Positions 4,303 to 32,297 of a stretch of 32,796 nt of DNA are shown one piece after another. Positions within the stretch are counted from its first letter, which is position 1; every line of letters begins with the position of its first letter. Origin of the DNA: Parcubacteria group bacterium Athens0714_16 (GTDB lineage: Bacteria > Patescibacteriota > Minisyncoccia > Phycocordibacterales > 21-14-all-36-13); the NCBI GenBank assembly GCA_007376805.1, contig VMGX01000010.1:1-32796 (forward strand), given 5' to 3'. The notes under the pieces were generated by a model. That model searched no databases. It was not told the DNA's origin and worked only from the letters and a program-made list of their open reading frames with translations. The position numbers and the translations under genes are program-made.

Positions 4303-6516
4303 TTATATTGCTAATACAACCGGTATAACTAATGGTTTTTTTGCTGTCTGTTGAAGCAAAAACTTCCTAACACTATCCGTTATATTTGTTTTAATATAAT
4401 CAAAGTTTATTGGATACATATTTGTCGTTGATTCCTCAACAACTTTTTTAATTATTAATCGTGTTTGTTGTAATAATTCCTGCGATTCTCTTAAATAAAC
4501 GAAACCTCTAGAAATTATATCAGGAGATTTTCTTAATTTTCCAGTTCGCGCGTTTATTGTTGCTACAATAATAAATATACCATCTTCTGCAAGTAATTGT
4601 CTGTCTCGTATAACTACATCCTGTATATCGCCGATAGAAAAACCATCAACCATCATCATACTTGAAGTTGCTTTTTCTTTTAATGCAATAATTTTGTTTC
4701 CACCATCTTTTATTTCGATTACCATTCCATTATCTGGAACTATAATATGGTCCTCTCTCATACCAGTTGATTCTGCTAATTCGGCATGCAAACGAAGCAT
4801 TGAGTGCCAACCATGAATAGGAATAAAAAATTTTGGTTTTACTTTTTTGTGGAGCCATTCAATTTCATCATGATTTCCGTGTCCTGTTGAATGAATAAAT
4901 AAATCACTCGTTCTGTAGTGTACTATTTTTACTCTCTGTCTTGCCAAGTTATCTTTCAACTTTTGAACAGCGATTTCATTTCCAGGAATTATAGACGATG
5001 ACAAAACAACGGTGTCATTTTTATGAAGTTTTAATTTATGTTCACCTGTGGACATTCTCATAAGTGCCGCATATTCGTCTCCCTGGGCACCAGTAGCTAG
5101 AACAACAATTTTATCTTCGGGGATTTTTGATGATTGATCTAGATTTATTATTGTGTCGGGCTTTGTTTTTAATAGTCCTATTTCCTTTACTATTGCTATG
5201 TTGTCTTTCATACTTCTTCCTTCTATCACAACTTTTTTTCCATATTTTTCAGCCATGGCAATAATTTTAATTATTCTTTCTATCTGTGAGGCAAATGTTC
5301 CAATAACCAATCTCCCTTTTATATCTTTTATTATTGTTTCTAAATCTCTATGAACATATCTTTCTGGTGTTGAAAATCCAGGATTTTCAACATTCGTTGA
5401 ATCGCATAGTAATAAGAGAACTTTTTCGGTATCAAAAATTTTGTATTTTTCCTCTTCCTCCTTTGTGACAATTCCATCTATATGATCAAGTTTAAAGTCC
5501 CCAGGATTTACAATACTCCCGTGAGGAGTTTCAATAATTACACCCATTGAGTCGGGGATTGTGTGTGTTACTGAGAAAAATTTTACATGCAAATTACCTA
5601 ATTTAATTGCATCATTTTTTTCAATTATATTTATGTTTAATTCTTTTTCATCAGGAAATTCAGATTGTCTTTTCCTTATCATCATTGTTGTAAGAAGGCG
5701 AGAGTAGATCGGAGGATTTCCTATTTTACCCATTATATAAGGGATTGCACCGGTGTGATCAAGGTGGCCGTGTGTAATTATAAGAGCGCGAATTTTATCT
5801 TTTCTTTTTTCTAAATATCCTATGTTGGGTATTATGTAATCAACGCCAGGGGTAATATTATTGTCTGTAAATTGAAATCCTGCGTCTAATATTATTATGT
5901 CGTTTTTATATTCAACGATATACATATTTTTTCCTATTTCTTCAACACCCCCAAGCGCAATAACTCTCACGTCACCATCTTTTAATGGGGGTATTTTGTC
6001 CTCGCTTTGTTTTTTTCCTACCCCAGTAAAAAATTGTTCAAATCCGGGTTCTTTTCTATGTCCTGCACGTTTTGTGTGTTCTCCGTGTGGTGAATTTGAT
6101 TTTGCGTGAGATTTCTTTTTGTTTTCTGTTTGTTGTGCTGAACCTGTTTCAAAAAAACTATCTTCAAAACCAGCAACATAAGGCTTCTTTTCTCTTCGAA
6201 AATTAGTTTTGTGTTCGTTTGTATTTTTTATTGTTTCACCGTGGCGAGAAGAAGCTTGTCTGGGTGTTTGGTTCGTCGTGTTTCTTGTGTTTGTGTTTAA
6301 ATACTTTAATGAAAATTCATCATCATTTTTTATGACTTCTTTTATTTCCGGTAGATATCCTTTTCTTGTTTCATTTACCCTGTTAAATTCCGTCGTGGAC
6401 GGACTAGCCTCGCCCATATGGGCTAAGCTGGATTTAACAAGGTGAAGCTTATTAAATGAATTTTTTTGATGTGGAGTTTTTCCACTTCTATTTTTGTTTC
6501 TTTTTTCGTTGTCCAT
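4303..6516 (-). CDS. rnj: Ribonuclease J with ~180 aa low-complexity basic N-terminal extension
   Basis: DVRVIALGGVEEIGKNMYIVEY...ALIITHGHLDHTGAIPYIM...GDFKLDH...ATGAQGDEYAALMRMSTGEH...HGWHSMLRLHAELA: MBL/beta-CASP RNase J motifs. Confidence 0.95.
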   Translation of the reverse strand: MDNEKRNKNRSGKTPHQKNSFNKLHLVKSSLAHMGEASPSTTEFNRVNETRKGYLPEIKEVIKNDDEFSLKYLNTNTRNTTNQTPRQASSRHGETIKNTNEHKTNFRREKKPYVAGFEDSFFETGSAQQTENKKKSHAKSNSPHGEHTKRAGHRKEPGFEQFFTGVGKKQSEDKIPPLKDGDVRVIALGGVEEIGKNMYIVEYKNDIIILDAGFQFTDNNITPGVDYIIPNIGYLEKRKDKIRALIITHGHLDHTGAIPYIMGKIGNPPIYSRLLTTMMIRKRQSEFPDEKELNINIIEKNDAIKLGNLHVKFFSVTHTIPDSMGVIIETPHGSIVNPGDFKLDHIDGIVTKEEEEKYKIFDTEKVLLLLCDSTNVENPGFSTPERYVHRDLETIIKDIKGRLVIGTFASQIERIIKIIAMAEKYGKKVVIEGRSMKDNIAIVKEIGLLKTKPDTIINLDQSSKIPEDKIVVLATGAQGDEYAALMRMSTGEHKLKLHKNDTVVLSSSIIPGNEIAVQKLKDNLARQRVKIVHYRTSDLFIHSTGHGNHDEIEWLHKKVKPKFFIPIHGWHSMLRLHAELAESTGMREDHIIVPDNGMVIEIKDGGNKIIALKEKATSSMMMVDGFSIGDIQDVVIRDRQLLAEDGIFIIVATINARTGKLRKSPDIISRGFVYLRESQELLQQTRLIIKKVVEESTTNMYPINFDYIKTNITDSVRKFLLQQTAKKPLVIPVVLAI
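6376..6444. repeat. Palindromic element inside the rnj coding region (in frame)
   Basis: Terminal arms ACCCTGTTAAATTCC / GGATTTAACAAGGT. Internal hairpin CCGTC-GTG-GACGG and perfect palindrome GCCCATATGGGC. Encodes LVKSSLAHMGEASPSTTEFNR. Confidence 0.75.
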
Positions 6517-6642
6517 TATTTTGTTATGGCGTATGTTTTTGCCATCTGTTAATTTTAGGAGATTTTTCTTATAATTTTTTTATTTGGATTAGTTGAGATT
6601 AGTTCTTTAAATCCTTTCCAAGAGAATTTAAAATAAAAAATA

Positions 6643-8415
6643 TTACTCAACAAATATATTCCATACTTTTTGTGTATTTATATACCAATTATTAACATCT
6701 AAAAATCTTTCAGCGGGAGTTGTCACTACGCCCAGTTCAAAACCTTTTAGATTTTTTGGTACTGTATAAACAAAATCAGGAGAGTATAGAAAAATTGCCG
6801 GTGTGTCTTTTTTTACTTCTCCTATAAACTCCACATATTTTTTATATTTTTCTTTTTCGTCTGACATTTTTCTTATTTCTTCCAAAATCTTATCTGTTTT
6901 TATATTTGTGTAAGATGCAATATTTAATCCGGGGTCATTTCTTTGGGATGAATGCCAAAAAGCAAATAAGTCCATATCTCTACCAACAATTTCACCAAAC
7001 AAAAGCGCATCATATTTTCTTGGCCTTATTATGTCTTGATTCAAGTTGGTTGTTTCAAAAAATTGAAGATTAACCTTCACACCTATTTTTGCCCACATTC
7101 CTTGTATTAACTGTGCAGTTTTTTTAAGTTCTGGAATATTTGATGTTGTGAGTGTAAATTCTAAATTTTCAATTTTTTTACCAAATTTTTTTGTTCTAAT
7201 GTTTGTATCTTTATTTAATTTCCATCCATTTTTTTCTAAAATATCGATTGCTGCATTGGCTCTGGATTTTGCGTCTGTAAAAGATTTACTTCTGACAGAT
7301 TCTGTTGTTTTCAATTTTATTGAACCTGGTGGTATTGGTGTTTCAGCAACTTCTCCGTAGTTGTTTAAAACTTCTTTAACGACATACTCTTTATCGGTTG
7401 CCATATCTAATGCCTGGCGTATTTCTTTGTGTGTAAATATTTGTGCTTGATTTTGATTTAAAAATACTGCGAATACTCGTGGCAGTGGATATCTTTCAAC
7501 GCGTTCGCCGTCTCGTCTCAATTCTTCTGCTATTAAAGAAGAAATTGTGTTCATTGAAGTTATAGAACCTTTTCCGTATGCTTTGTTTAATTCTTCTTCA
7601 TTTGAATAAAATTTGGTTTCTATTTCTGAAATAAATGGTTTGTTTAGAGAATAATCAGCAAATGGTTCTAAGGTGTAATATTCTGAAACTCCAGCCGAAT
7701 CACTTTCGATGCTTTTTATTTTATAAGGTCCAGAACCAATTGGTTCTATATTGAATCTACTAAAAATAAATTGTTCCGAATCAATCTTACCCCATATATG
7801 TTTTGGAAGTATTCCGAGCGTTGTATTTTCAAGGAATGGGGAATATGGTTGTTTGAGAGTAAAACGGACTTCTTTTTCTCCAATTTTTTCTGTTTGCACA
7901 CCGTCCCAGGCTGCACGCTTTGGACTTTTGATTACACTGTCTTGACTTTTTTGTATTGTAAATAAAATATCGTCAGCCGTTACCGGTTCACCGTCGTGGA
8001 ATGTTGCGCTATCTTTAATTTTAAATGTATATGTAAGACCGTCTCCAGAAATTTCATAACTTTCTGCTAGGTCTTTAATAATTCTTCCGTCCGGTGTTGC
8101 CTTCATTAGTCCTGAATACACCAAAATTGATAAGTCACGATCTGCATCTGAAATTGCTAAAACAGGATTTATAAAACGTGGGAAGCCGATAACTCCTTCA
8201 ACTATTTTCCCACCTTCAACTGGAATTTCTGTAGAAATGTAATCATTTATTTTCCAAAGCATTGAAATTGTGCTCACAATAAGGAAAAAACAGAGAAACA
8301 AAAAAGTTATTCTTTCTAGAAAAGAGAAAGAATGGAAAGTTTTGTCGAGTTTTTCAATTAATGGGATATCAAATCTTTTTCTAAAGTCTATTTTAGACAT
8401 ATTAAATTTAAACAA
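6643..8415 (-). CDS. ABC transporter substrate-binding protein, family 5 (peptide/oligopeptide type)
   Basis: N-terminal TM segment, then VEGVIGFPRFINPVLAISDADRDLSILVYSGLM...YTFKIKDSATFHDGEPVTADDILFTIQ...EPIGSGPYKI. Confidence 0.9.
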   Translation of the reverse strand: MFKFNMSKIDFRKRFDIPLIEKLDKTFHSFSFLERITFLFLCFFLIVSTISMLWKINDYISTEIPVEGGKIVEGVIGFPRFINPVLAISDADRDLSILVYSGLMKATPDGRIIKDLAESYEISGDGLTYTFKIKDSATFHDGEPVTADDILFTIQKSQDSVIKSPKRAAWDGVQTEKIGEKEVRFTLKQPYSPFLENTTLGILPKHIWGKIDSEQFIFSRFNIEPIGSGPYKIKSIESDSAGVSEYYTLEPFADYSLNKPFISEIETKFYSNEEELNKAYGKGSITSMNTISSLIAEELRRDGERVERYPLPRVFAVFLNQNQAQIFTHKEIRQALDMATDKEYVVKEVLNNYGEVAETPIPPGSIKLKTTESVRSKSFTDAKSRANAAIDILEKNGWKLNKDTNIRTKKFGKKIENLEFTLTTSNIPELKKTAQLIQGMWAKIGVKVNLQFFETTNLNQDIIRPRKYDALLFGEIVGRDMDLFAFWHSSQRNDPGLNIASYTNIKTDKILEEIRKMSDEKEKYKKYVEFIGEVKKDTPAIFLYSPDFVYTVPKNLKGFELGVVTTPAERFLDVNNWYINTQKVWNIFVE

Positions 8416-8493
8416 TAAATGGAGTTTTTATTACAACAAAATATATTAGTTATAGGTATATTGTATGTTTGTTTTAGGTAAACAATTTAAAAC

Positions 8494-8727
8494 TTACAAA
8501 ATTAGTGAAAGAAATGCGGTCAATAGAAATAGAGCACCGAGAATTATTGTTCCGTTGAAAAGAATTTTTTCCAAACCTCTTCGTGTGTGTTGAATTCCTC
8601 CGGCATCATTTCCACCACCAAAAACAGCGCCCAAGCTGGCGTCTGATTGTTGCATCAATATTCCGATAATTAACAGAATAGAAAGCACCATTTGTATATA
8701 AGGTAATACATTAACTAAGGATTCCAT
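8494..8727 (-). CDS. secG: Preprotein translocase subunit SecG
   Basis: 77 aa, two TM segments, IGILMQQSDASLGAVFGGGNDAGGIQHTRRGLEKILFNGTIILG. Confidence 0.85.
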   Translation of the reverse strand: MESLVNVLPYIQMVLSILLIIGILMQQSDASLGAVFGGGNDAGGIQHTRRGLEKILFNGTIILGALFLLTAFLSLIL

Positions 8728-8809
8728 TTGCCTATTATAGTATCACATTGGTCATTTTGAGGCAACACTTGGTGATAAATTTTATAATGAATTAGAACAC
8801 GAATTTTAT

Positions 8810-8838
8810 TTGACATCATCAAAAAGAATAAATATAAT
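8810..8838 (+). promoter_or_regulatory. Consensus sigma70-type promoter upstream of groES
   Basis: TTGACA - 17 nt - TATAAT. Confidence 0.75.
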
Positions 8839-8871
8839 GTTGTATCTATAAACAAAAAAGGTCTTAATTAA

Positions 8872-10935
<2,064 letters not shown>

Positions 10936-10981
10936 CCATAATATATTTTAGTTAATTTAAATCCTACAGTGAACGAAAAAA

Positions 10982-11015
10982 CAAAGGCTTCGCCTTTGCA
11001 AAGGCGAAGCCTTTG
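10982..11015. repeat. 34-bp perfect palindrome CAAAGGCTTCGCCTTTGCAAAGGCGAAGCCTTTG
   Basis: Exact self-complementarity with no spacer. Confidence 0.95.
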
Positions 11016-11025
11016 GAAGAGCGAA

Positions 11026-11061
11026 AAAACAAGCTCAATTTTATAAAATTGAGCTTGTTTT
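11026..11061. repeat. 36-bp perfect palindrome AAAACAAGCTCAATTTTATAAAATTGAGCTTGTTTT
   Basis: Exact self-complementarity with no spacer. Confidence 0.95.
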
Positions 11062-20925: not shown

Positions 20926-22605
20926 ATGGTAAAAAAGATTTTGTTTTTATTTTCTAAAGAGACAAGCGGTCTTCACCAGGCCGCTTATCTTTTAGCATTC
21001 TTTACATTTATTTCCCAAATTCTTGCACTTGTTAGAGATCGTCTTTTGGCGCACACATTTGGTGCTAGTAGTACACTTGATATTTACTATGCCGCTTTTA
21101 GAATTCCAGATATTATTTTGGTTTTTGCCGCTTCGGTCGTTTCTATTTCTATTTTGGTTCCTTTTCTTGTGGAAAAAATTAATGAAGGCACAGAGGTTGG
21201 TCATGACTTCATAAGACATGTTTTTACGGCTTTTTTTATTTTTATTGTTTTTATAAGTGCAATTGTTTTTTTTATAATTCCTTATATAACAAACATTGTT
21301 TTCCCAGGCATAGTTGATCCAAAATCAGTTCAAGAATTGATTATGTTAACAAGAATTTTGTTGCTTTCTCCAATTATTCTCGGTCTCTCAAATTTGTTTT
21401 CAAGTATTCTACAAGTTTTTAAAAGATTTTTTGCCTATGCAATAGCTCCCGTTCTTTATAATGTTGGGATAATTGTTGGGATAATTGTTTTATATCCAAT
21501 ATTTGGAATCAAAGGCCTTGCCTATGGCGCTGTTTTGGGGGCACTTATGCATTTTTTTGTCCAAGTGCCGATTGTTATAAAAAAGAAATTTTTACCGTCA
21601 TTTGTTTTTCCAATAAATCTCGGCTATGTAAAAAAAATTCTTTGGAATTCATTACCGAGAACATTTACATTATCTACGAGTCAACTCACGATTCTTGTTT
21701 TGTTAGGGATGGCATCTGTTATACAAGAAGGGTCAATATCAATATTTAATTTTTCAAACAATCTCCAATCGGTTCCACTGGCACTTATAGGAGCAAGTTA
21801 TTCTTTGGCAGTTTTTCCAATGCTTTCAAAATTTTTTGCTGACGGGGACAGAAAAAAATTTTTGGACCACATAATAACAGCCGTTAGGCATATTATTTTT
21901 TGGTCTTTACCAATAACAATAATGTTTATTGTTTTGAGAGCGCAGATAGTTAGAACAATTTTAGGGAGCGGTTCTTTTAGTTGGTCAGACACCAAACTCA
22001 CGGCCGCTTCTCTGGCAATTTTTGTTGTATCTGCTGTTGCTCAGGGTTTGATACTTCTTTTTATAAGAGGATATTATGCATCTGGTAATACAAAAAAACC
22101 TTTGCTAATAAATACCATATCAGCAATCTTAATTATTGTATTTTCTTTTTTACTAACAAATTTGTTTGTTTCAAATAATTTTTTCAGATTTTTTATTGAG
22201 TCATTGTTTAAAGTTGAATGGCTAAGCGGTAGTGAGATTCTTATGTTGCCCTTGGCGTTTACACTCGGGACAATAATAAATATGACAATGTTTTGGTTTA
22301 TGTTCCAAAAAGATTTTGGTAAATTTTATAATTTAGTTAAAAAAACATTATTACATAGTTTTTCCGCTTCTATTATTTCTGGTTTTATTGCGTATAAATT
22401 TTTGGATGTATTTGATAACTTATTTGATATAAGAACATTGGTGGGTATATTTATGCAAGGATTTCTTGCTGGAATAATAGGTATAATTTCTTACATAATA
22501 ATTTTGAAATTATTAAAAAACGAAGAATTGGAAGAAATTTGGTCATCGGTTAGGGATAAAATTTGGAAAATAAATATAGTTGCACCAGGGAAAGAAGAAT
22601 TGTAG
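20926..22605 (+). CDS. murJ: Lipid II flippase MurJ/MviN family
   Basis: ~14-TM protein, FISQILALVRDRLLAHTFGASSTLDIYYAAFRIPDIILVF. Confidence 0.9.
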   Translation: MVKKILFLFSKETSGLHQAAYLLAFFTFISQILALVRDRLLAHTFGASSTLDIYYAAFRIPDIILVFAASVVSISILVPFLVEKINEGTEVGHDFIRHVFTAFFIFIVFISAIVFFIIPYITNIVFPGIVDPKSVQELIMLTRILLLSPIILGLSNLFSSILQVFKRFFAYAIAPVLYNVGIIVGIIVLYPIFGIKGLAYGAVLGALMHFFVQVPIVIKKKFLPSFVFPINLGYVKKILWNSLPRTFTLSTSQLTILVLLGMASVIQEGSISIFNFSNNLQSVPLALIGASYSLAVFPMLSKFFADGDRKKFLDHIITAVRHIIFWSLPITIMFIVLRAQIVRTILGSGSFSWSDTKLTAASLAIFVVSAVAQGLILLFIRGYYASGNTKKPLLINTISAILIIVFSFLLTNLFVSNNFFRFFIESLFKVEWLSGSEILMLPLAFTLGTIINMTMFWFMFQKDFGKFYNLVKKTLLHSFSASIISGFIAYKFLDVFDNLFDIRTLVGIFMQGFLAGIIGIISYIIILKLLKNEELEEIWSSVRDKIWKINIVAPGKEEL

Positions 22606-22644
22606 ATGAAAATTGTCGTTAAGCGACAATTTTCATCTACAATT
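22598..22644. repeat. Palindrome at the murJ 3' end (21-bp arms, TTAAG loop)
   Basis: AATTGTAGATGAAAATTGTCG-TTAAG-CGACAATTTTCATCTACAATT; left arm includes the last Leu codon and TAG stop. Confidence 0.97.
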
Positions 22645-22687: not shown

Positions 22688-24481
22688 ATGAAAAATATAA
22701 GAAATTTCAGCATAATTGCGCATATAGACCACGGTAAAAGTACTTTGGCTGATAGAATGTTGGAAATTACAAACACGATTGAAAAAAGAAAAATGAAGGA
22801 GCAGGTTTTGGATAGAATGGAGCTTGAAAGAGAAAAGGGAATTACTATTAAAATGCAACCAGTTAGAATGGATTATGTTGCGGAAAATGGTGAAAAATAT
22901 ATTTTTAATCTCATAGATACCCCCGGACACATAGATTTTTCATATGAAGTTTCTCGTGCATTAAAAGCAGTTGATGGAACAATATTACTTGTCGATGCGA
23001 CACAGGGTGTTCAGGCACAAACACTTACAACGCTCAGAATGGCTCAAAATCAGAAGTTGCCTATAATACCCGTTTTAAGCAAAATTGACTCATCCTACGC
23101 TAGAATTGACGATGTAAAAGGGGAAATTATGGAGATTTTGGGCTGTAAAAATGAAGAAATATTGGAAATTTCTGGTAAAACAGGCGAAGGAGTAAAAGAG
23201 TTGTTGAACACAATAGTAACTAAAATCCCAAGCCCAGAAGAGTATCTAGAAAAGAAAGATGATACGCAGGCACTGGTTTTTGATTTTGAATATTCAAATC
23301 ATAGGGGCGTAATTGTTTTCGTTAGAGTTTTTGGTGGGGAAATAAGAAAAAACAAAACACTTAGTTTCAAGGCAGTTAATAAAAAATTTAATGCACAAGA
23401 AGTTGGGTTTTTTTCTCCTGACATGAAAGAAAAAGAAGTTCTTTCTGCTGGAGAGATTGGTTATATAGTAACAGGAATAAAAGAGCCGGGGGTTGCATCT
23501 GTCGGAGATACAATAACTTTACATGGCAGTTCCGCTTTGGCACTAAAAGGATATCAAACTCCAAACCCGGTTGTGTGGGCGTCAATTTTTCCAGAAAGCC
23601 AAAATGATTTTACAATTCTTAGACAAGCATTAAATCTTCTTTTTCTTTCAGATTCATCATTATCTTTTTCGGAAGAATCCTCTGGAGTTTTGGGTAGGGG
23701 ATTTAGATGTGGTTTTTTAGGAATGCTTCATATGGAAATAATAATGGAAAGATTAAAAAGGGAATTTAGTTTGAAGTTAATTATTACATCACCAAGTATT
23801 ACCTACGAAGTTGAAAATAAAAAAGGAGAAAGAAAATTAGTTTATTCTCCGTCATTGTTTCCATCACATGGAGATGTGGCTTTTGTTAGAGAGCCGTGGG
23901 TTGATGCTGACATAATTACTCCGCGTGAGCACTTGAGTCCTGTTATACAACTTTTACAAGAACATGAATCAAAAATAACAAACACAGAAACGTTTGCAGA
24001 CGGTAGAACAATAATAAAAACAGAAATGCCATTGAGAGAATTAATGAGAAATTTTTTTGATGAGCTAAAAAGAGTTTCTTCTGGCTATGCCTCTTTATCC
24101 TATGATATAAAAGAAATGAAAACTGCGGATGTGGTTAAGTTGGAGGTGTTAATTGCCGAAGAACTGGTTCCGGCTTTTTCTAAAGTTGTTTCAACCAAGA
24201 GAGTTGAAGAAGAAGCAAAAGAAATTGTTGAAAAATTATATGAATATTTGCCCAGACAAATGTTTAAAACAAAAATACAAGCTTCAGCACAGGGTAGAAT
24301 AATTTCTTCAAAAACTTTATCTGCAATGAAAAAAGATGTTACTGGTTATTTATACGGTGGTGATATAACAAGAAAAATGAAATTGAGAGAAAAACAAAAG
24401 AGAGGGAAAAAGAAGTTATTAGAAAGAGGAAAAGTAAATATTCCTACAAAAGTTTTCTTTGATATCCTTAAATCAAAATGA
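22688..24481 (+). CDS. lepA: Elongation factor 4 (LepA)
   Basis: MKNIRNFSIIAHIDHGKSTLADRMLE...DTPGHIDFSYEVSRAL...; C-terminal KMKLREKQKRGKKKLLERGKVNIPTKVFFDILKSK. Confidence 0.98.
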   Translation: MKNIRNFSIIAHIDHGKSTLADRMLEITNTIEKRKMKEQVLDRMELEREKGITIKMQPVRMDYVAENGEKYIFNLIDTPGHIDFSYEVSRALKAVDGTILLVDATQGVQAQTLTTLRMAQNQKLPIIPVLSKIDSSYARIDDVKGEIMEILGCKNEEILEISGKTGEGVKELLNTIVTKIPSPEEYLEKKDDTQALVFDFEYSNHRGVIVFVRVFGGEIRKNKTLSFKAVNKKFNAQEVGFFSPDMKEKEVLSAGEIGYIVTGIKEPGVASVGDTITLHGSSALALKGYQTPNPVVWASIFPESQNDFTILRQALNLLFLSDSSLSFSEESSGVLGRGFRCGFLGMLHMEIIMERLKREFSLKLIITSPSITYEVENKKGERKLVYSPSLFPSHGDVAFVREPWVDADIITPREHLSPVIQLLQEHESKITNTETFADGRTIIKTEMPLRELMRNFFDELKRVSSGYASLSYDIKEMKTADVVKLEVLIAEELVPAFSKVVSTKRVEEEAKEIVEKLYEYLPRQMFKTKIQASAQGRIISSKTLSAMKKDVTGYLYGGDITRKMKLREKQKRGKKKLLERGKVNIPTKVFFDILKSK

Positions 24482-24520
24482 TGAAAATTGTCGTTAAGCG
24501 ACAATTTTCATCATTTTGAT
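24472..24520. repeat. Palindrome at the lepA 3' end (22-bp arms, TTAAG loop)
   Basis: ATCAAAATGATGAAAATTGTCG-TTAAG-CGACAATTTTCATCATTTTGAT; 33-bp core identical to the murJ palindrome. Confidence 0.97.
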
Positions 24521-25094: not shown

Positions 25095-25165
25095 GCGGTC
25101 GTAGTTTAATGGTAGAACTGGTGCTTCCCAAGCATCGGGCGCGAGTTCGATTCTCGCCGACCGCA
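25095..25165 (+). tRNA. tRNA-Gly(CCC)
   Basis: GCGGTCGTAGTTTAATGGTAGAACTGGTGCTTCCCAAGCATCGGGCGCGAGTTCGATTCTCGCCGACCGCA. Confidence 0.95.
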
Positions 25166-25319
25166 CAAAATATGAAGTATTTTTATGTGCGGTAGAAAAA
25201 GCAAATTTATTTGCTTTTGTGGAGAATCGAATGATTTTCTATGTTGAATCTTGGACTCGTCTAAGATGAAACAGAAAATCACGTGGTTAATGAAATTAAC
25301 ATTCTCGCCGACCGCACAA
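25150..25319. repeat. 19-bp direct repeat of tRNA-Gly 3' end (25150-25168 and 25301-25319)
   Basis: attctcgccgaccgcacaa exact in both positions; 132 bp between copies containing a long imperfect hairpin. Confidence 0.95.
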
Positions 25320-25417
25320 TAAAAATACACCATAAAAATATTATTTTTAAAGTTCCAGATGTTTTTTATGATGATATAATTATTTAGTATTATTATTTAA
25401 CTTGCTCACATTTTAAT

Positions 25418-25666
25418 ATGGAAAATCAGAACAATAAAAAGGTATTCATTTATTCAACACCAATGTGTCCATATTGTGAAATGGCAAAAGATTTTTTTGC
25501 AGAAAATAAAATAGAATTTACAAATTATGATGTTTCTACCGATGTTGAGAAAAGAAAAGAAATGGTTGAAATATCAGGACAGATGGGAGTTCCTGTTATC
25601 ATAATTGATGGACAAACGATGGTTGGTTTTGATGAAGATAAATTGACTGAATTATTGGGTCTATAA
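25418..25666 (+). CDS. Glutaredoxin family protein (CPYC)
   Basis: VFIYSTPMCPYCEMAKDFFAENKIEFTNYDV...MGVPVIIIDGQTMVGFDEDKLTELL. Confidence 0.9.
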   Translation: MENQNNKKVFIYSTPMCPYCEMAKDFFAENKIEFTNYDVSTDVEKRKEMVEISGQMGVPVIIIDGQTMVGFDEDKLTELLGL

Positions 25667-25697
25667 GCAGTAGTTTGTATGTTTTTATATGTGATGG

Positions 25698-25737
25698 TGT
25701 ATCGTGGTACCGTTCGTACGAACGGTACCACGATACA
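25698..25737. promoter_or_regulatory. 40-bp perfect palindrome, candidate operator and/or terminator
   Basis: TGTATCGTGGTACCGTTCGTACGAACGGTACCACGATACA is fully self-complementary; 15-mer GTTCGTACGAACGGT recurs at 26076-26090. Confidence 0.8.
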
Positions 25738-25778
25738 ATAGTAGTATAGTATTTTTTAATAACATAAAAAAAATAATT

Positions 25779-26051
25779 ATGAAATATCAAGAGGCTGAAA
25801 AAATGTATAAAGCATTAGCTAGTAAACGTAGGTTAGAAATACTTCATTATTTATCAAAAGAGGCAAAGGCAAATGTTATTGATATTTCAGAAAAAATAAA
25901 ACTATCTTACAGGTCCACCTCCAAACATCTTCAAATATTAAAAAACGCTGGGTTTATTGATAGTGATCAAATTGATTTTGGACAATTCTATTATTTGAAA
26001 GATAAAAATAATTCTTTTGTAAAACACTCCTTGTCTATTTTTCATCCATAA
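25779..26051 (+). CDS. ArsR-like winged-helix transcriptional regulator
   Basis: MYKALASKRRLEILHYLSKEAKANVIDISEKIKLSYRSTSKHLQILKNAGFIDSDQIDFGQFYYLKD. ATG at 25779; the upstream part of the listed ORF is the palindrome. Confidence 0.85.
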   Translation: MKYQEAEKMYKALASKRRLEILHYLSKEAKANVIDISEKIKLSYRSTSKHLQILKNAGFIDSDQIDFGQFYYLKDKNNSFVKHSLSIFHP

Positions 26052-26216
26052 TTTATTACAACGGATGGACGGATGGTTCGTACGAACGGTTCGCAATAAA
26101 AAATCATTTTGATTTTCGATTCCTGACACGAGCGAATACTTGTCCGTCCTAGGAGGAAATTTGCTCATTTCTCAAACATAAAATAGCCTCGTAATTTTGT
26201 GTCCTCGACAGGAATC

Positions 26217-26276
26217 GGTCGCGAGTACTTAGATTTTTTGTTCGCTACTCTCCAAAAAATCTAAGTACTCGCGACC
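26217..26276. repeat. 24-bp perfect inverted repeat with 12-nt loop
   Basis: GGTCGCGAGTACTTAGATTTTTTG-ttcgctactctc-CAAAAAATCTAAGTACTCGCGACC. Confidence 0.97.
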
Positions 26277-26283
26277 CCGTCTC

Positions 26284-26309
26284 CTGAGCTGTCTAAAAGG
26301 ACAGCTCAG
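26284..26309. repeat. 10-bp stem hairpin CTGAGCTGTC-taaaag-GACAGCTCAG
   Basis: Perfect complementarity. Confidence 0.9.
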
Positions 26310-26387
26310 TCCGACTTTCGATTTTCTCTCCCAGAGAACCACAGACAATACAAAAATAACCAACAAAAGTTGGTATTTTTGATTGTG

Positions 26388-26459
26388 TGTCCTCGACAGG
26401 AATCGAACCTGTAATTACTCCTTAGGACGGAGTTGTTATATCCATTTAACTACAAGGAC
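26388..26459 (-). tRNA. tRNA-Arg(CCT)
   Basis: Reverse complement GTCCTTGTAGTTAAATGGATATAACAACTCCGTCCTAAGGAGTAATTACAGGTTCGATTCCTGTCGAGGACA. Confidence 0.95.
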
Positions 26460-26538
26460 AATACTAAAAAAACTTCTATTTATATTAAAACTATATCACA
26501 AGTTTCATTTTTTTTAAGTTTTTGATATAATTTAAACA

Positions 26539-26829
26539 ATGCCAAAAGACGAAAAAGAATTACTGGAAGAGACATACAAACTTTCAGAAGAAAACAATAG
26601 TATTTTGAGAAAAATGAGAAGATCTGTTATTTATGATCGTATATTCAGAATAATATATTGGTTAATAGCACTTGGGCTTGCAACAAGTTTATATTATTTT
26701 ATTCAACCGTACACAGATAAAATTGTTGATGTTTATAAGACCGTAATGACTAGTATTCAAAAACTAAAAAGTGTTAGTGATTCAATCCCAAATGTTCCAA
26801 ATAACTCTGGTGTTGATGTTGTTAAATAG
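26539..26829 (+). CDS. Hypothetical single-TM protein
   Basis: 96 aa; MPKDEKELLEETYKLSEENNSILRKMRRSVIYDRIFRIIYWLIALGLATSLYYF... Confidence 0.7.
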   Translation: MPKDEKELLEETYKLSEENNSILRKMRRSVIYDRIFRIIYWLIALGLATSLYYFIQPYTDKIVDVYKTVMTSIQKLKSVSDSIPNVPNNSGVDVVK

Positions 26830-26872
26830 AGTATTGAATCATCTAATAAATAGTGTAGAATTCATTAAATAC

Positions 26873-26919
26873 GCTCAGGTAGCTCGGTTTCCGCCAGAGG
26901 CGGATCAGCCCTCGGGCGG
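26873..26919 (+). repeat. Truncated tRNA-Phe 5' copy (26873-26889) joined to a GC-rich tandem-hairpin repeat (26890-26919)
   Basis: gctcaggtagctcggtt vs gctcaggtagctcagtt at 26948 (16/17), followed by TCCGCC-AGA-GGCGGA and GCCC-TC-GGGC. Confidence 0.85.
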
Positions 26920-26947
26920 ACAGTTGTAAGTTACAATTTAATATTAT

Positions 26948-27021
26948 GCTCAGGTAGCTCAGTTGGTTAGAGCATCTGCCTGAAGAGCAGGGGGTCGCCA
27001 GTTCGATTCTGGCCCTGAGCA
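26948..27021 (+). tRNA. tRNA-Phe(GAA)
   Basis: GCTCAGGTAGCTCAGTTGGTTAGAGCATCTGCCTGAAGAGCAGGGGGTCGCCAGTTCGATTCTGGCCCTGAGCA; anticodon loop CTGAAGA. Confidence 0.95.
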
Positions 27022-27028
27022 CATAAAA

Positions 27029-27057
27029 AAAGAGCACCTTTTATGGGTGCTCTTTTT
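27029..27057. terminator. Bidirectional terminator
   Basis: AAAGAGCACC-ttttat-GGGTGCTCTTT. Confidence 0.8.
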
Positions 27058-27062
27058 AATAT

Positions 27063-27506
27063 TTAGCTTCTCGTTTTTACCTTTAACTTTGTTTGTTTCC
27101 CTTTGTCTATTTTAGGCAATGTTATTGAAAGCAAACCATGATTTTCTATGGCATCTGCTTCTTCAACCTCTATTTCAGCTGGCAACATTATTGTTCTAGA
27201 AAATGAACCCCAATATAATTCCTTATGAAAATAATCTTCTTTTGCTATATCTTCCGGTTCTTTTCTTTCACCTTTTATAACAACCATTTCTCTCGTTATA
27301 GATATATCTAAATCTTCTGGTCTCACACCAGCAACCATTGTGTGGATGATTACTTCTTCTGGTTTGTTATAAACATCAACAGTAAGTTGATAATCTTCTC
27401 TTTCTTCTTCAACCCAATCTTTTTCGTTTTCTTCTTTTTCTACAACGTCATCATCAACGTTTATTGTTCCTGTTAATCTTTCAAAAAATGATCCTCGTTT
27501 TTTCAT
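27063..27506 (-). CDS. Hsp20/alpha-crystallin family small heat shock protein
   Basis: DYQLTVDVYNKPEEVIIHTMVAGVRPEDLDISITREMVVIKGERK...YWGSFSRTIMLPAEIEVEEADAIENHGLLSITLPK. Confidence 0.92.
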   Translation of the reverse strand: MKKRGSFFERLTGTINVDDDVVEKEENEKDWVEEEREDYQLTVDVYNKPEEVIIHTMVAGVRPEDLDISITREMVVIKGERKEPEDIAKEDYFHKELYWGSFSRTIMLPAEIEVEEADAIENHGLLSITLPKIDKGKQTKLKVKTRS

Positions 27507-27526
27507 AAATATAATTTTTTTTAAAC

Positions 27527-28231
27527 TTATAATAATCTATTTTTTTGATTTATATTTTGCGGACGAATTCTTTTAACCTTTTCGAAAAGTAATATTAAAA
27601 CTATAACTGCAAACCAAACCAATCCGAACACCATAAAAATATTTTCATCCTCGCCATTAATTATAAGTAAATTAAAAATAGAGTGCAACGCTATTGATAG
27701 GATAAGTCCAATTAATAAATATATTTTTTTTGTTAGAGCACTTTTATAGAAAGATAGGCCTATAAACAACCCGACAACTCCAGAAGTTAATGTATGCAAA
27801 ACAGTGGCTCCCATAAATCTCATATTCCCAGCGACTATCCCTTCTAAAATTCCAGTTTCAGAAATTAAAAATAAAACATTTTCAAGAGCAGCAAATCCTA
27901 ATGCAGTGGTTATTAAATAAACCATTGCATCCACAGGTTCATCCATGTCATGTTTTCGTAAAGATGTGAAGTAAGATGCAACATATTTAAAAATTTCTTC
28001 AATAGCTGACCACAATATAATCATTATTGATGCACTAACTAAAACATACTCTTTAACAAATTTTTCTGCAAACAGTGCCAACAACACCGCAACAAAACCA
28101 CCAAGGAATGTAAGTGCTATTAAACCTTTTGGTTCAGGTTTTCTTTTATCTTCTCTTAACCAAAACCAAAGCCAAAACAGCGCAGGTATAATTCCACCAA
28201 CCAGAGCTATTGTTATTGTTTGGAAATTCAT
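27527..28231 (-). CDS. PrsW family intramembrane protease
   Basis: Multi-TM, WSAIEEIFKYVA...DEPVDAMVYLITTALGFAALENVLFL...FMGATVLHTLTSGVVGLFIG. Confidence 0.85.
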   Translation of the reverse strand: MNFQTITIALVGGIIPALFWLWFWLREDKRKPEPKGLIALTFLGGFVAVLLALFAEKFVKEYVLVSASIMIILWSAIEEIFKYVASYFTSLRKHDMDEPVDAMVYLITTALGFAALENVLFLISETGILEGIVAGNMRFMGATVLHTLTSGVVGLFIGLSFYKSALTKKIYLLIGLILSIALHSIFNLLIINGEDENIFMVFGLVWFAVIVLILLFEKVKRIRPQNINQKNRLL

Positions 28232-28243
28232 GAATTTAAAAAA

Positions 28244-30439
28244 TTAAATTTTTGGCCATTTTTCTATCATCAAAATTTCTTTATTTTTATTCCACGGAGC
28301 ATTTTGCCAAATTTCCTCTGTAATAAATGGCATAAACGGATGTAGTGTTTTCAGGCATGTTTTTAATATATATATAATAGTCCACTGAGCTGATAATTTT
28401 TCTTTTTTATCTGTACTTTTCAATCTTAACTTTGTTTCTTCAATTATTACATCTGCAAATCTGTGCCAGAAATAATGATAAAGTTTTTCTCCAGCTAGGT
28501 AGAATTTAAAACCATTCATATCTTTGGTTATGTCTTTCAAAATTTCATTAAGTTCATCTACATATTTTTTATCTGTATCTAGAATTTCAGTTTTTTCTTC
28601 ATAATCAAAATCTTCTGTATTTGAAAAAACAAATCTAGAAGCGTTCCAAATTTTATTTGCAAAATGTTTATATGCTTTTATTTTTTCATCCGTAATAACA
28701 GTATCATTTCCAGGACCAACTCCAATAATCATTGCCATTCTTAAAGCGTCCGCACCATATTTTTCTATTGCACCTATTGGGTCGATTGCGTTATCAAGGG
28801 ACTTACTCATTTTTCTTCCTTTTTCGTCACGAACAAGCCCGTGAAGATAAACTTTTTTAAATGGCACATCCTCAAGTAAAAATCCAGACATTAAAATCAT
28901 TCTTGCGACCCAGAAAAACAAAATATCATAACCGGTTTCAAGAACACTTGTTGGATGAAATGTTTTCAAATCCTCTGTATTGTTGGGCCAACCAAGTGTA
29001 GAAAATGTCCAAAGTCCAGATGAAAACCAAGTGTCTAAAGTATCTGGGTCTTGTTCCCAGCCTTTTTTTTCTTCAAGAGAAATTTTTTCTTCTTTATACC
29101 AAACAGGTATTTGATGTCCATACCAAATCTGTCTTGAAATACACCAGTCGCGCAAATTATCAATCCAGTGATAATAAACTTTTTCAAATCTATCTGGGAT
29201 TATTTCAATCTGTTTAGATTCAACAGCATTTTTCATAATCTCTTTAAGAGAAACATCTTGTCCTGTTTTTAATCCTTTTAATTTACTATTTTTTAATTTG
29301 AATTTTTTATTTACATCAACAAACCACTGCAAGGACGGTAATGGTTCAATGGGGGAATTACATCTATAACAAATTGAAAGATTATTATTTATTTCTTCCT
29401 CTTTTTCTAATAGCCCATTGGCTTTTAAATATTCTAAAACTTTCTCTCTCGCTTCTTTTATTTTTAATCCAGAATATTCTGTCCCAGCTTCGTTTGTTAT
29501 TTTTGCGTATTCATCAATAATTTTAATTATCGGTAGATTATTTTTTTGTGCAATCTCATAATCAATATGACTATGTGCTGGGGTTATACCAACGGCACCA
29601 GTACCAAATTCAAGGTCTATATTTTCGTCTGCAATTATTTTTATTTTTAAATCAGGCCCACCAGCAAATTTTTTAATTTCAAATTCTTGTCCGATATATT
29701 TTTTATATCTTTTATCATTTGGGTTTACAGCAACTGCTGTATCGCCGAGTTTTGTTTCTGGACGTGTTGTAGAAATATAAATAGGGAAGTCAGAAGAATA
29801 TTTAAATGTATAAAATTTTGCCTTCTGTTCTTCGTGTTCAACTTCATCATCAGAAAGTGTTGACTGACATTTTGGACACCAATTAACAATCCTATGTTTT
29901 CTATAAATTAATTCAGCATTATACATTTGTAAAAATGCTTCATTAACTGCTTTACCCCTTTCTTCATCAAGGGTAAAGGCCTCACGAGACCAATCTAGAG
30001 AAGCCCCCATTTTTTTTGTTTGGTTTACTATTGTGTCGTGGCTGTTTTTTGCGTATTCATTTACTCTTTTTAAAAATTCTTCACGGCCTAAATCGTGACG
30101 ATTTTTCTTTTCTTTTTTATAAATTTCTTTTTCTACTTTTGATTGTGTTGCAATTGCAGCATGGTCGGTTCCTGGGACCCACAATGTTTTTTTACCAAGC
30201 ATTCTGTTATAACGGACCATGATATCTTCAATTGCGAGCATAATTGCGTGTCCTGTGTGAAGATTGCCCGTTACGTTAGGCGGCGGAAGAACAATGCTAA
30301 AAACTTCTTCTTTTTTTATTTTGCTGTCAGCCAGAGGCTGACCGTCCTTGGGACGGAAAAACCCACTCTTTTCCCAGAGTTTATATATATTATTTTCCGT
30401 TTCTTTTGAATCGTATGGTTTTAAAAACTTCTCATCCAT
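28244..30439 (-). CDS. valS: Valine--tRNA ligase
   Basis: PPPNVTGNLHTGHAIMLAIEDIMVRYNRMLGKKTLWVPGTDHAAIATQ...GRKMSKSLDNAIDPIGAIEKYGADALR. Confidence 0.97.
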   Translation of the reverse strand: MDEKFLKPYDSKETENNIYKLWEKSGFFRPKDGQPLADSKIKKEEVFSIVLPPPNVTGNLHTGHAIMLAIEDIMVRYNRMLGKKTLWVPGTDHAAIATQSKVEKEIYKKEKKNRHDLGREEFLKRVNEYAKNSHDTIVNQTKKMGASLDWSREAFTLDEERGKAVNEAFLQMYNAELIYRKHRIVNWCPKCQSTLSDDEVEHEEQKAKFYTFKYSSDFPIYISTTRPETKLGDTAVAVNPNDKRYKKYIGQEFEIKKFAGGPDLKIKIIADENIDLEFGTGAVGITPAHSHIDYEIAQKNNLPIIKIIDEYAKITNEAGTEYSGLKIKEAREKVLEYLKANGLLEKEEEINNNLSICYRCNSPIEPLPSLQWFVDVNKKFKLKNSKLKGLKTGQDVSLKEIMKNAVESKQIEIIPDRFEKVYYHWIDNLRDWCISRQIWYGHQIPVWYKEEKISLEEKKGWEQDPDTLDTWFSSGLWTFSTLGWPNNTEDLKTFHPTSVLETGYDILFFWVARMILMSGFLLEDVPFKKVYLHGLVRDEKGRKMSKSLDNAIDPIGAIEKYGADALRMAMIIGVGPGNDTVITDEKIKAYKHFANKIWNASRFVFSNTEDFDYEEKTEILDTDKKYVDELNEILKDITKDMNGFKFYLAGEKLYHYFWHRFADVIIEETKLRLKSTDKKEKLSAQWTIIYILKTCLKTLHPFMPFITEEIWQNAPWNKNKEILMIEKWPKI
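30326..30356. repeat. Tandem-hairpin GC-rich repeat in frame inside valS N-terminal coding region
   Basis: GTCAGCC-AGA-GGCTGAC followed by CCGTCC-TTG-GGACGG; same GCC-AGA-GGC architecture as 26890-26904. Encodes RPKDGQPLAD. Confidence 0.85.
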
Positions 30440-30520
30440 TTGAAAATAATAACATTTTTTAGATTTATTTTAAACGGATTTTGTACTTTTAACCTCACAC
30501 TTATGAAATTAGTTGTGGGG

Positions 30521-30549
30521 TTGACAGATTATTTAAATAGGCATATAAT
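30521..30549 (+). promoter_or_regulatory. Consensus sigma70 promoter TTGACA-17-TATAAT
   Basis: TTGACA 30521-30526, TATAAT 30544-30549. Confidence 0.8.
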
Positions 30550-30654
30550 ATACAACAGAAAAGAACATAAAGTTCTTTAATAAAAAACCAGCTTATCGTA
30601 AGGGTAAGTGGATTTAAACAATCAAATCAGCGCAATGCTGAGGAGGTAAATAAA

Positions 30655-31098
30655 ATGAGTAATAAAAACAAAGAAAAAACCCAAAGTGGTTTTCTTAAGA
30701 AAAGAGAAATTCATGGGTTAGATTTTACAATGTGTTCGGTGGTTTACTTTTTAAACCGAGCAATTTTTACTCTTCTTGGGGAGATCAGAATTGAACTCAT
30801 TAAAGGATTTAGTGCAGAGATATTAAATGAGTACCCATTGGGTGGAAGTAAGACAGTAGATTTATATATAAGAATAAGACCCTTTCCTTGGGAAAAAGGT
30901 AACAGCTTTGTTGTTCGTTTATTGAAAATGTCTGGGGATGTACATGATTGGTATTTAAGTTACATTCATTTTGAGTCTATCAAAAGGTCTCAAAGTAACG
31001 ATGTTTTTATTATAGAATTACCATCAGACATTCTTCTTTCGGAACATCTCATAAAAGAATGTCAAACTTTTTTACTCAAATCTTTTGCTAAAGAGTAA
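30655..31098 (+). CDS. Hypothetical protein (147 aa)
   Basis: MSNKNKEKTQSGFLKKREIHGLDFTMCSVVYFLNRAIF... with strong SD GAGGAGGTAAATAAAATG and consensus promoter. Confidence 0.7.
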   Translation: MSNKNKEKTQSGFLKKREIHGLDFTMCSVVYFLNRAIFTLLGEIRIELIKGFSAEILNEYPLGGSKTVDLYIRIRPFPWEKGNSFVVRLLKMSGDVHDWYLSYIHFESIKRSQSNDVFIIELPSDILLSEHLIKECQTFLLKSFAKE

Positions 31099-31103
31099 AT
31101 CTC

Positions 31104-32297
31104 TCATAACCTCAAATTTCCTTCAGCTCGCAATTCTAACGGATTGCGAGTTTTTTTATTTGAAATAAATCTAAAATATCCGGCGATTCCTATCATCACG
31201 GCGTTATCTGTTGAAAGAGAATTTTCTGGCAACATTAATTTTATATTTTGTTTATCTGCAAGTTTTGTAAATTCTTGTCTAATTTGTTTGTTTGCAACAA
31301 CACCTCCGCCAATTATTAAAGTTTTAGCATTATATTTTTGCAATGCTTTTTTTGTTTTTGAAATAAGAACATCCACAACCGCGTCTTCAAATTCTCTAGC
31401 AATTTCTTTTTTAATCTCGTCTGTTATTTCCGGTAATTTTTTTATTTTATAAAGTACTGAAGTTTTTAATCCAGAAAATGAAAAATCAAAGCCATCTGTA
31501 CTTATCATCGGCCTTGGCAAACTCCATTTATTTTCGTAATTTTTATTTCTAGTTTCTTCTGCAAGTTTTGATATTTCTGGACCGCCGGGATAGGGAAGTC
31601 CGAGCATTCTCGCGACCTTATCAAACGCCTCGCCAACGGCATCGTCTCTCGTTTGTCCTATAATTTCATAATCAAGCCAATCTTTAATCAAGACCAATTC
31701 TGTATGTCCGCCACTTATTAATAATGAAATCATTGGAAATTGGAAACCTGCCCGTTCCGCAGGCGGGTTAGAAATTAAAAATTCTTTTTTTTCGCGCATA
31801 AGCACAGAAAAAATGTGTCCTTCCATATGATTTACCGGTGTTAAAGGTTTGTTCCACGCAATCGAAAGTGCTTTTGCAAAATTAAGACCAACCCAAAGTG
31901 CAGGTTCAAGTCCCGGGCCATAAGTTACAGCGACTGTGTCAACATTAGGAATTTCAATTTTTAATAATAGCTCTTTTAATTTTTCAAAAAGTCCTGACTC
32001 TTTTTCTAAAATTTTTTCAATTTCTTTTATTTTTTCATCACTTATTTTACTTGGAGGCCGAGCCTCCAAGTAAAGAGAAGATTGTTTAAGTGTATTTTCT
32101 AAAAGTGGAACTAAGTTTTTTGCATGTTCGCGTTTTGCAAGAGAAGGGAATACACCACCATATTCTTTATGTATTTCAATTTGAGACAGCAATGAATTTC
32201 CAAGTATTTTAAAACTAGGATTTTCAAAGCCACCATTACACTCAATAATCGCAACGGCGGTTTCATCACAACTGGTTTCTATACTTAATATTTTCAT
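31104..32297 (-). CDS. tsaD: tRNA N6-adenosine threonylcarbamoyltransferase TsaD
   Basis: MKILSIETSCDETAVAII...HKEYGGVFPSLAKREHAKNLVPLLE...VTYGPGLEPALWVGLNFAKALS...NHMEGHI...LLISGGHTELVLI...GGPEISKLA. Confidence 0.96.
   Translation of the reverse strand: MKILSIETSCDETAVAIIECNGGFENPSFKILGNSLLSQIEIHKEYGGVFPSLAKREHAKNLVPLLENTLKQSSLYLEARPPSKISDEKIKEIEKILEKESGLFEKLKELLLKIEIPNVDTVAVTYGPGLEPALWVGLNFAKALSIAWNKPLTPVNHMEGHIFSVLMREKKEFLISNPPAERAGFQFPMISLLISGGHTELVLIKDWLDYEIIGQTRDDAVGEAFDKVARMLGLPYPGGPEISKLAEETRNKNYENKWSLPRPMISTDGFDFSFSGLKTSVLYKIKKLPEITDEIKKEIAREFEDAVVDVLISKTKKALQKYNAKTLIIGGGVVANKQIRQEFTKLADKQNIKLMLPENSLSTDNAVMIGIAGYFRFISNKKTRNPLELRAEGNLRL
31747..31767. repeat. GC-rich repeat in frame inside tsaD: CCTGCCCGTTCCGCAGGCGGG
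   Basis: Encodes NPPAERAG between the LIS and FPMISLLISGGHTE portions of TsaD. Confidence 0.7.
32046..32074. repeat. Palindrome in frame inside tsaD: TTTACTTGGAGGC-CGA-GCCTCCAAGTAAA
   Basis: 13-bp perfect stem, 3-nt loop; encodes SLYLEARPPSK. Confidence 0.93.

Follow-up and report, generated by a model that had tools for sequence, protein, structure and literature searches.

The palindromic insert within the rnj gene studied here is probably a MITE-like, non-autonomous copy of a mobile element of ~280 bp, which is bounded by TIRs, encodes a GIY-YIG nuclease and would be moved by that nuclease. From sequence comparison we conclude that such GIY-YIG/TIR elements form a class of very small transposons not described before, together with non-autonomous derivatives. 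With less assurance, we also lean towards the fuller reading that they form a new class of autonomous transposon of ~280 bp, having a GIY-YIG protein of ~85 aa as the only enzyme, inserting at start codons with rebuilding of ATGA and acting as the source of in-frame palindromes.

Palindromes of the window and in-frame insertions in the genome

The window (the whole stretch of 32,796 nucleotides analysed here) belongs to the 632-kb genome of an ultra-small bacterium. The palindromes which the original prediction had placed inside rnj, valS and tsaD and at two intergenic positions are all present, the borders of the rnj segment being really 6374–6446:

4303..6516, minus strand: rnj (RNase J); the N-terminal tail, which is disordered, carries the element
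6374..6446, minus strand: short TIR element TTTACCCTGTTAAAT...ATTTAACAAGGTGAA in rnj, ~23 codons in frame including LVKSSLAHMGEASPSTTEFNRV; putatively non-autonomous
6388..6403: first of the two hairpins within the rnj element, TCCGTC-GTG-GACGGA
6405..6425: second of these hairpins
30327..30356, minus strand: tandem hairpins in valS (30327-30341 and 30342-30356; RPKDGQPLAD), a separate palindrome family
31745..31769, minus strand: imperfect hairpin in a variable loop of tsaD (NPPAERAG)
32046..32074, minus strand: perfect ACTTGG-type palindrome in tsaD with 13-bp arms (YLEARPPSK)
26890..26920: intergenic TCCGCC/TCAGCC tandem hairpin, from the family that also provides the SASGG inserts of aspS, dnaE and tgt
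2579..2601: intergenic ACTTGG-type palindrome

The TIR pair of the rnj element is 15 bp long and imperfect, and encloses the two hairpins with a folding energy of -32.3 kcal/mol. Counting inverted repeats with an arm length of ≥10 and a G+C of ≥0.4 gives six for the window and none for any of 12 dinucleotide shuffles. The palindromes of the window are real and non-random. Copies, the search for which had been proposed along with the original prediction, were counted in a 456-kb sample of the genome that includes the window, and the palindrome families proved to be multi-copy. ACTTGG-N-CCAAGT palindromes occur seven times in this sample (0 for three altered-sequence controls), TCCGCC-N-GGCGGA palindromes 12 times (controls 0, 0, 2 and 0), and inward-facing TIR pairs of the form CCYGTTARW/WYTAACRGG 15 times (0–1 in shuffles, and a single outward-facing pair). 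The pattern GAGGCTTCGCC gave no match when searched. Since the ACTTGG copies differ in their cores while their stems are intact, the predicted compensatory changes that keep the stem are confirmed. That all of the palindromes belong to the same families is not confirmed; at least three families had been mixed, and the hairpins of valS and tsaD belong to families other than that of the rnj element.

Comparison with solved homologues places the extra residues of both TsaE and AspS exactly at a palindrome. As judged from these alignments, some palindromes of this genome are in-frame insertions in conserved genes, and further in-frame insertions are likely in prfB, truB, dnaE, tgt and a TPR gene. 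The window genes themselves, for which alignment with relatives had been suggested as a check, behave otherwise. In protein alignments most relatives have a valS loop of about equal length, and neither of the tsaD loops keeps a fixed length; because these loops vary in relatives anyway, insertion in valS and tsaD is not proven. The N-terminal tail of RNase J cannot be aligned among relatives. The idea of extra peptides and an RPE-like system therefore stands at the genome level, through TsaE, AspS and the multi-copy families, and not for the valS and tsaD peptides. Mobility is supported indirectly for the rnj family, by target duplications of its TIR relatives and empty sites of its GIY-bearing relatives, whereas neither a mobiliser nor an empty site was found for the valS and tsaD hairpin families.

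A GIY-YIG/TIR element and its relatives in other genomes

The window also holds a GIY-YIG element at 3896–4294, which the earlier reading of the same DNA had overlooked. Its features are as follows:

3900..4290, minus strand: GIY-YIG/TIR element TCCCGTTAGAGA...TCTCTAACGGGA, 391 bp
3987..4295, minus strand: GIY-YIG nuclease ORF, with its core from an internal ATG (4011-4268; PF01541, E=1e-19)
4279..4294, minus strand: TIR at the 5' end in gene orientation, TGCATCCCGTTAGAGA
3896..3911, plus strand: opposite TIR, 3' in gene orientation; reads TGCATCCCGTTAGAGA on this strand
4291..4294: target duplication TGCA on the 5' side (gene orientation), where the copy of the host start codon reads ATGCA
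3896..3899: target duplication TGCA on the 3' side, which, joined to the element's terminal A, restores the ATG of the MFS gene downstream
3912..4020: extra palindrome-rich stretch of ~115 bp, CCTGCCCGCC...GGCAGGCGGG, with approximate borders; absent from ~276-bp elements
2716..3900, minus strand: MFS transporter gene, the start codon of which is the insertion site

The nuclease ORF reads MHPVRDHIV-MNYVYIL, running from the copy of the host start codon through the TIR. Owing to the extra sequence close to its 3' end, the element exceeds the usual ~276 bp by ~115 bp. This genome has four GIY-YIG matches, two of which are enclosed by TIRs: one, at 3896-4294 of the window, by CCCGTTAGAGA, and the other, elsewhere in the genome, by CCCTGTTAAAT, which is the TIR of the rnj element.

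In other genomes, a GIY-YIG ORF of ~85 aa fills an element of ~280 bp between TIRs, which read TCCCGTTAGAGAT or variants such as TCCCGTACGAAAT and ACCCTGTTAAAT. A separate collection provided 80 GIY-YIG loci; at a score threshold of at least 11, TIRs were called at 69 of them, mostly with a span of 270–290, and at 2 of 154 shifted controls. Clear TIRs are missing at the other 11 loci. A protein-blind search of 380 genomes for TIR pairs at that spacing returned 16 places (none for the reversed-pattern control), 13 of which read as GIY-YIG. The elements, of near-constant length and with this gene as the sole one, span many genera and several phyla, and are also present in records of Planctomycetota, Omnitrophota, Nitrospirota, Elusimicrobiota and Desulfobacteraceae. 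Carriage as phage or plasmid cargo was considered and rejected, as only three records of the plasmid collection and one of the phage collection match, all at below 60% identity.

Target duplications of 4 bp flank 36 of 90 elements, against a permutation mean of 10.6 and a maximum of 19 in 2000 permutations, which correct for the shared ATGA target and incompletely for selection at start codons. A host ATG is situated at the 3' end of the element in 53 of the 90 (orientation 53 versus 3), and 51 of these 53 ATGs open 90 codons or more (27.5% for random ATGs). The preferred site is ..ATGAN at host start codons; here the duplicated TGAN joins with the element's terminal A to rebuild the ATG, and the TGA stop codon of the nuclease overlaps it. 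All three loci tested have empty sites in sister genomes: the talA start (in G173), the murG start (in G256) and the locus L071 (in G158 and G031, identical over ~60 bp across the joint). Among short copies without the GIY-YIG gene, those of type B (TTAG type) show a 4-bp duplication in 17 of 27 cases (permutation maximum 10), whereas the rnj-type (TTAAAT) copies show an exact duplication in one of 10 and have TTYA/TRAA flanks instead.

The ~280-bp elements have space for one ORF. Three representatives match PF01541 (GIY-YIG) in Pfam and no transposase model, so that no known transposase (DDE, HUH, tyrosine or serine) was detected in them. The catalytic residues Y5, Y16, R26, H30 and E62 are invariant. 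Residue 69 is K/R in 11 of 11 nucleases with TACG TIRs versus 1 of 76 with TTAG TIRs, and residue 76 (N/S) splits likewise; both residues are located on the last helix (68–81), seven residues apart. This covariation counts six pairs on the best tree and one on supported branches, and with so few independent changes it is only suggestive.

Proposed mechanism and alternatives

Our model of nuclease-driven movement supposes that the nuclease would recognise the TIR via its basic C-terminal helix, which bears the covarying residues 69 and 76. It would cut the element ends and cleave TGAN-like targets with a 4-nt stagger, and host repair or ligation would complete the insertion. The same nuclease may act in trans on short palindromic copies, which could persist inside genes if the sum of copy length and 4 is divisible by 3 (rnj, tsaE, prfB). 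No DNA strand joining or strand-transfer activity of GIY-YIG enzymes is known, and integration would hence need another activity.

This last point, and the fact that TIRs with a 4-bp duplication are typical of insertion by a transposase, favour an alternative in which an unrelated host or IS transposase moves the elements via their TIRs, carrying the GIY-YIG gene along as a passenger or selfish maintenance factor. We regard it as rather unlikely, given that this is the sole gene of elements of near-constant length across so many genera, that the TIR pair predicted it in most blind matches and that nuclease residues covary with the TIR. Somewhat more weight, though still well short of an even chance, goes to the possibility that the palindromes in rnj, tsaE and other genes are unrelated REP- or RPE-like hairpins of local origin or with another mobiliser, which have the CCYGTTAAAT end in common with the GIY-YIG element L031 by chance or nested insertion. 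The scarcity of exact duplications at short TTAAAT copies fits such an origin, as do the TCCGCC and ACTTGG hairpin families that sit in genes without a GIY partner. However, inward TIR pairs far exceed their shuffles, and L031 has a TIR core identical to that of the rnj element and the same TTCA/TAAA outer ends, its nuclease grouping in the tree with a Nomurabacteria TIR element.

Homing, in which a GIY-YIG endonuclease spreads into a fixed site of element-free alleles by double-strand-break repair, would suit a homing endonuclease family with weak similarity to group I intron endonucleases and start codons as recurrent insertion sites. The sites are in unrelated genes with only ~4–5 bp in common, and carry TIRs and 4-bp duplications, neither of which homing yields; no intron or intein is apparent in the elements, and homing is largely refuted and very improbable. 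That the palindromes are regulatory or terminator hairpins or low-complexity loops agrees with the position of those of valS and tsaD in loops variable among relatives. We give this hardly any credence, because TsaE and AspS have their extra residues exactly at palindromes and the TIRs are multi-copy; terminators and simple REP hairpins are rejected by the empty sites and duplications.

No description of a GIY-YIG insertion element with TIRs or start-codon sites was found in the open-access papers searched, and to our knowledge no DNA transposon family relies on a GIY-YIG nuclease as the only enzyme. Should movement by the nuclease be confirmed, one enzyme of ~85 residues would be moving a very small element, which would then be among the smallest autonomous DNA transposons known (~280 bp). 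It would also explain a role for many stand-alone GIY-YIG genes in Patescibacteria, identify the agent that mobilises in-frame palindromic elements (a gap for the RPEs of Rickettsia too) and exemplify a selfish element that stays harmless through exact start-codon insertion and ATG rebuilding. All parts of the element are short enough for synthesis and testing in E. coli.

Comparison with known systems

The GIY-YIG/TIR elements resemble DNA transposons in their TIRs, target duplications and empty sites, and differ in that no known transposase was detected among three representatives. With homing endonucleases such as I-TevI they share the catalytic domain, and not a single homologous site free of duplication. 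GIY-YIG insertions in CPR rRNA have been reported to fit neither intron type and not to look like homing spread (PMC11270868). Unlike I-TevI and these insertions, the present elements have TIRs, 4-bp duplications and start-codon sites, and contain no apparent intron. The closest fold to the element nucleases is that of stand-alone GIY-YIG proteins of the YazA/UPF0213 type (1zg2, 1ywl), and Bacillus YazA is a close match in the plasmid collection; in contrast to these proteins, the element nucleases are framed by TIRs and have a basic C-terminal end continuing into the TIR.

The RPEs of Rickettsia are, as here, palindromic, of several families and in frame in unrelated conserved genes, as described in PMC10969869. 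The present palindromes are much shorter (~20–150 bp versus ~150 bp), and their host is not Rickettsia, its relatives being Paceibacterota-type bacteria. The rnj family shares its terminal repeats with a GIY-YIG-bearing relative; the passages of PMC10969869 consulted name no RPE mobiliser.

Prokaryotic MITEs share with the short copies their small size, TIRs, multi-copy state and lack of a transposase gene, and with those of the TTAG type the 4-bp target duplication as well; the GIY-less TTAG-type copies have all the features of a MITE (short, with TIR and duplication, without enzyme gene). Here, however, the apparent autonomous partner has a GIY-YIG nuclease rather than a DDE-type transposase and is only ~280 bp long. 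RAYT/REP systems likewise combine palindromes dispersed in the genome with a related single-domain enzyme gene, but the enzyme of the present system is GIY-YIG rather than HUH tyrosine, and its elements carry TIRs and target duplications.

Palindrome families and insertions within genes

All of the palindromes named in the original prediction are present in the window, C19:1-32796. The draft genome it belongs to has 19 contigs and totals 632 kb. The palindrome in rnj, the RNase J gene, goes beyond a single hairpin and consists of a terminal inverted repeat (TIR) pair around two hairpins:

6374-6388 and 6432-6446, imperfect 15-bp TIR of rnj, TTTACCCTGTTAAAT...ATTTAACAAGGTGAA, with two hairpins enclosed

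The copy search that the prediction had proposed was run on a 456-kb sample of the genome, and the palindromes proved to be multi-copy. The core of the rnj-type TIR occurs as 15 inward pairs (0-1 in shuffles; outward pairs 1), ACTTGG-N-CCAAGT has 7 copies (controls 0) and TCCGCC-N-GGCGGA has 12 (controls 0, 0, 2, 0). There are therefore several families, and the valS and tsaD palindromes fall outside the family of rnj, with which they had been grouped.

The peptides encoded by the palindromes of these two genes had been described as apparently extra. Among the proteins of 29 relatives each, the corresponding loops vary freely in length, and the valS loop is commonly equal in length to that of the source. 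These genomes belong to the same order and not to the same family. The N-terminal tails of the relatives' RNase J do not align with the tail carrying the rnj insert. In-frame insertion, which the valS and tsaD alignments do not show, is instead clear for TsaE and AspS of the same genome. Set against 6n9a, 6nak and 1htw, TsaE carries about 21 additional residues after the conserved ..Y and before KLIHIDAYRL, a stretch that begins with the TIR element YPVKFRQRRTRFNGA. AspS has 8 extra residues around SGSASGG in alignment to 1efw, and the site is the palindrome TCCGCCTCGGGCGGA. In-frame inserts are also likely in prfB and a TPR gene (TIR type), truB (ACTTGG type), and dnaE and tgt (TCCGCC type); comparison of truB and tgt with solved homologues left insertion undecided. 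Measured from CCC to GG(G), the in-gene TIR copies are 41, 44, 65 and 71 bp long; each length plus 4 is a multiple of 3, matching the requirement for in-frame survival.

Further repeats are present in the window. Two palindromes (22598-22644 and 24472-24520) with an identical 33-bp core, GATGAAAATTGTCGTTAAGCGACAATTTTCATC, flank, one per side, the gene at 22688-24481, judged from its sequence to be probably lepA. Another perfect palindrome family, around GTTCGTACGAAC / GGTACCGTTCGTACGAACGGTACC, is located at 25698-25737, 26076-26090 and 10973-11010 of L001, and the double palindrome CAAAGGCTTCGCCTTTG...CAAAGGCGAAGCCTTTG has three near-identical copies (10982-11015; 10744-10777 and 11482-11515 of L008), L001 and L008 being stretches of the same genome. 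The ORF at the contig end (50-1180) is built from imperfect repeats of 138-147 bp, about six in number (IDYITIATTGNATDFGDL..). A tRNA 3' end (TTCTCGCCGACCGCACAA) is duplicated at 25137-25170 and 25288-25321, the duplicate lying 151 bp downstream of a tRNA-like 3' end, and it is possible that this is an integration scar.

GIY-YIG genes and their inverted repeats

In the source genome, a family search detected four loci with a GIY-YIG gene, which in one case is broken. Two are flanked by inverted repeats:

3900-4290, GIY-YIG/TIR element of the window, TCCCGTTAGAGA at both ends and TGCA on both sides
contig C1 (L031), GIY-YIG copy between TTCACCCTGTTAAAT and ATTTAACAGGGTAAA, the rnj-type TIR

Related GIY-YIG genes were found in 151 of 247 genomes of the order; most of the best 30 loci have perfect TIRs, usually spanning 276-283 bp. 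In an independent collection, TIRs scoring at least 11 accompany 69 of 80 GIY-YIG loci, compared with 2 of 154 shifted controls. A protein-blind converse search of 380 genomes of the phylum, using CCCGTTAGA and TCTAACGGG at element spacing, returned 16 places in 12 genomes (reversed pattern 0), 13 of which read as GIY-YIG by eye over the first 80 bases of each. The hosts in the independent collection include many Paceibacterota-type lineages as well as Planctomycetota, Omnitrophota, Nitrospirota, Elusimicrobiota and Desulfobacteraceae records.

The third GIY-YIG gene (C19:33156-33368; L030 1501-1713), just past the window end, lies directly upstream of tRNA-Glu(TTC), and a second partial tRNA 5' part (GGCCCTATCGTC..CTAACGGTTAGGAC) is present on its far side. 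It is a tRNA-targeted insertion without the TIRs.

Target duplication, empty sites and short copies

With element ends defined as TCCCG...CGGGA, 90 non-redundant copies were obtained. Exactly 4 identical bases lie outside both ends in 36 of them, whereas shuffling the right flanks among elements gave a mean of 10.6 and a maximum of 19 (2000 permutations). The duplications include TGAA, TGAG, TTTA, TGTA, TGCA and TGGA; as they differ in sequence, they reflect more than one shared target word. Sites without the element occur in relatives' genomes. At the L071 site, G158 (82% identity) and G031 both lack the element; in G031 about 60 bp are identical across the joint, with a single TGAA. G256 lacks the element at the murG site (L077), and matches run unbroken over the joint in G131 and G240 as well. 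For the talA copy (L080), the two flanks, once joined, align to G173 of the same genus with no interruption. Near one empty site, G031 carries a separate insertion of ~105 bp (L237, about 1395-1500) with ends TCCGCCTAAATTTTC...GAAAACTTTGGCGGA, an indication that the TCCGCC family might likewise consist of TIR elements.

TTAG-type TIR pairs in the 0.82 Mb surveyed near the loci of relatives have a bimodal spacing, the majority at 267-289 bp and 23 at 31-156 bp. An exact 4-bp duplication flanks 17 of 27 short TTAG copies, counting those of the source genome (permutation mean 4.8, maximum 10), so their insertion followed the same route as that of full elements. The TTAAAT subfamily, which includes the rnj insert, has TTYA/TRAA flanks and exact duplications in only 1 of 10.

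The right end adjoins an ATG in 53 of the 90 elements (the mirror arrangement occurs 3 times), and 51 of these ATGs open at least 90 codons, compared with 27.5% for random ATGs. By eye, the downstream proteins begin like CTP synthase, RuvX, TopA, SMC, Pth, MurG, XthA and talA products. The right TIR forms part of the coding sequence (..RFLSLTG-stop), which ends in a TGA shared with the duplicated ATGA. The nuclease and host genes therefore overlap by ATGA, and thus the junction is replaced while the host start codon is kept. In the window copy, a copy of the host start codon reads via the TIR into the nuclease (MHPVRDHIVMNYVYIL).

The nuclease and its relation to known systems

Across 34 aligned proteins, the catalytic residues Y5, Y16, R26, H30 and E62 do not vary. 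AlphaFold predicts the GIY-YIG fold with a last helix at 68-81 (mean pLDDT 84), and among solved structures the UPF0213 proteins 1zg2 and 1ywl, Slx1 and I-TevI are closest. A K or R occupies position 69 in 11 of 11 TACG-TIR nucleases vs 1 of 76 TTAG ones, and residue 76 is mostly S in the former vs N in the latter; in the model, the two lie seven residues apart on the last helix. Both types are interleaved in one supported clade, where residue 69 follows the type (R in L132 and L145, M in L144 and L172). This apparent covariation with TIR type is suggestive only, since only one independent pair lies on supported branches.

We infer that the nuclease drives movement of the elements. Translated from its own or a captured host start, it would bind the TIRs through its last helix and cut at the element ends and, with a 4-nt stagger, at the target, with insertion completed by host repair; it might also work in trans on the short palindromic copies. 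GIY-YIG enzymes hydrolyse DNA, so strand joining would call for a further activity.

The broken GIY-YIG gene (C6:105809-106017), within an apparent 23S rRNA gene, resembles in its placement the GIY-YIG insertions in CPR rRNA, which PMC11270868 describes as fitting no intron and as not looking like homing. The open-access literature searched yielded no description of the GIY-YIG/TIR element. A reading as a homing endonuclease was rejected, as the element does not show the features that define homing. Because it has the TIR, duplication and empty sites of a transposon, lacks any known transposase and does not fit homing, we rate it as new in kind, with movement that would be nuclease-driven.
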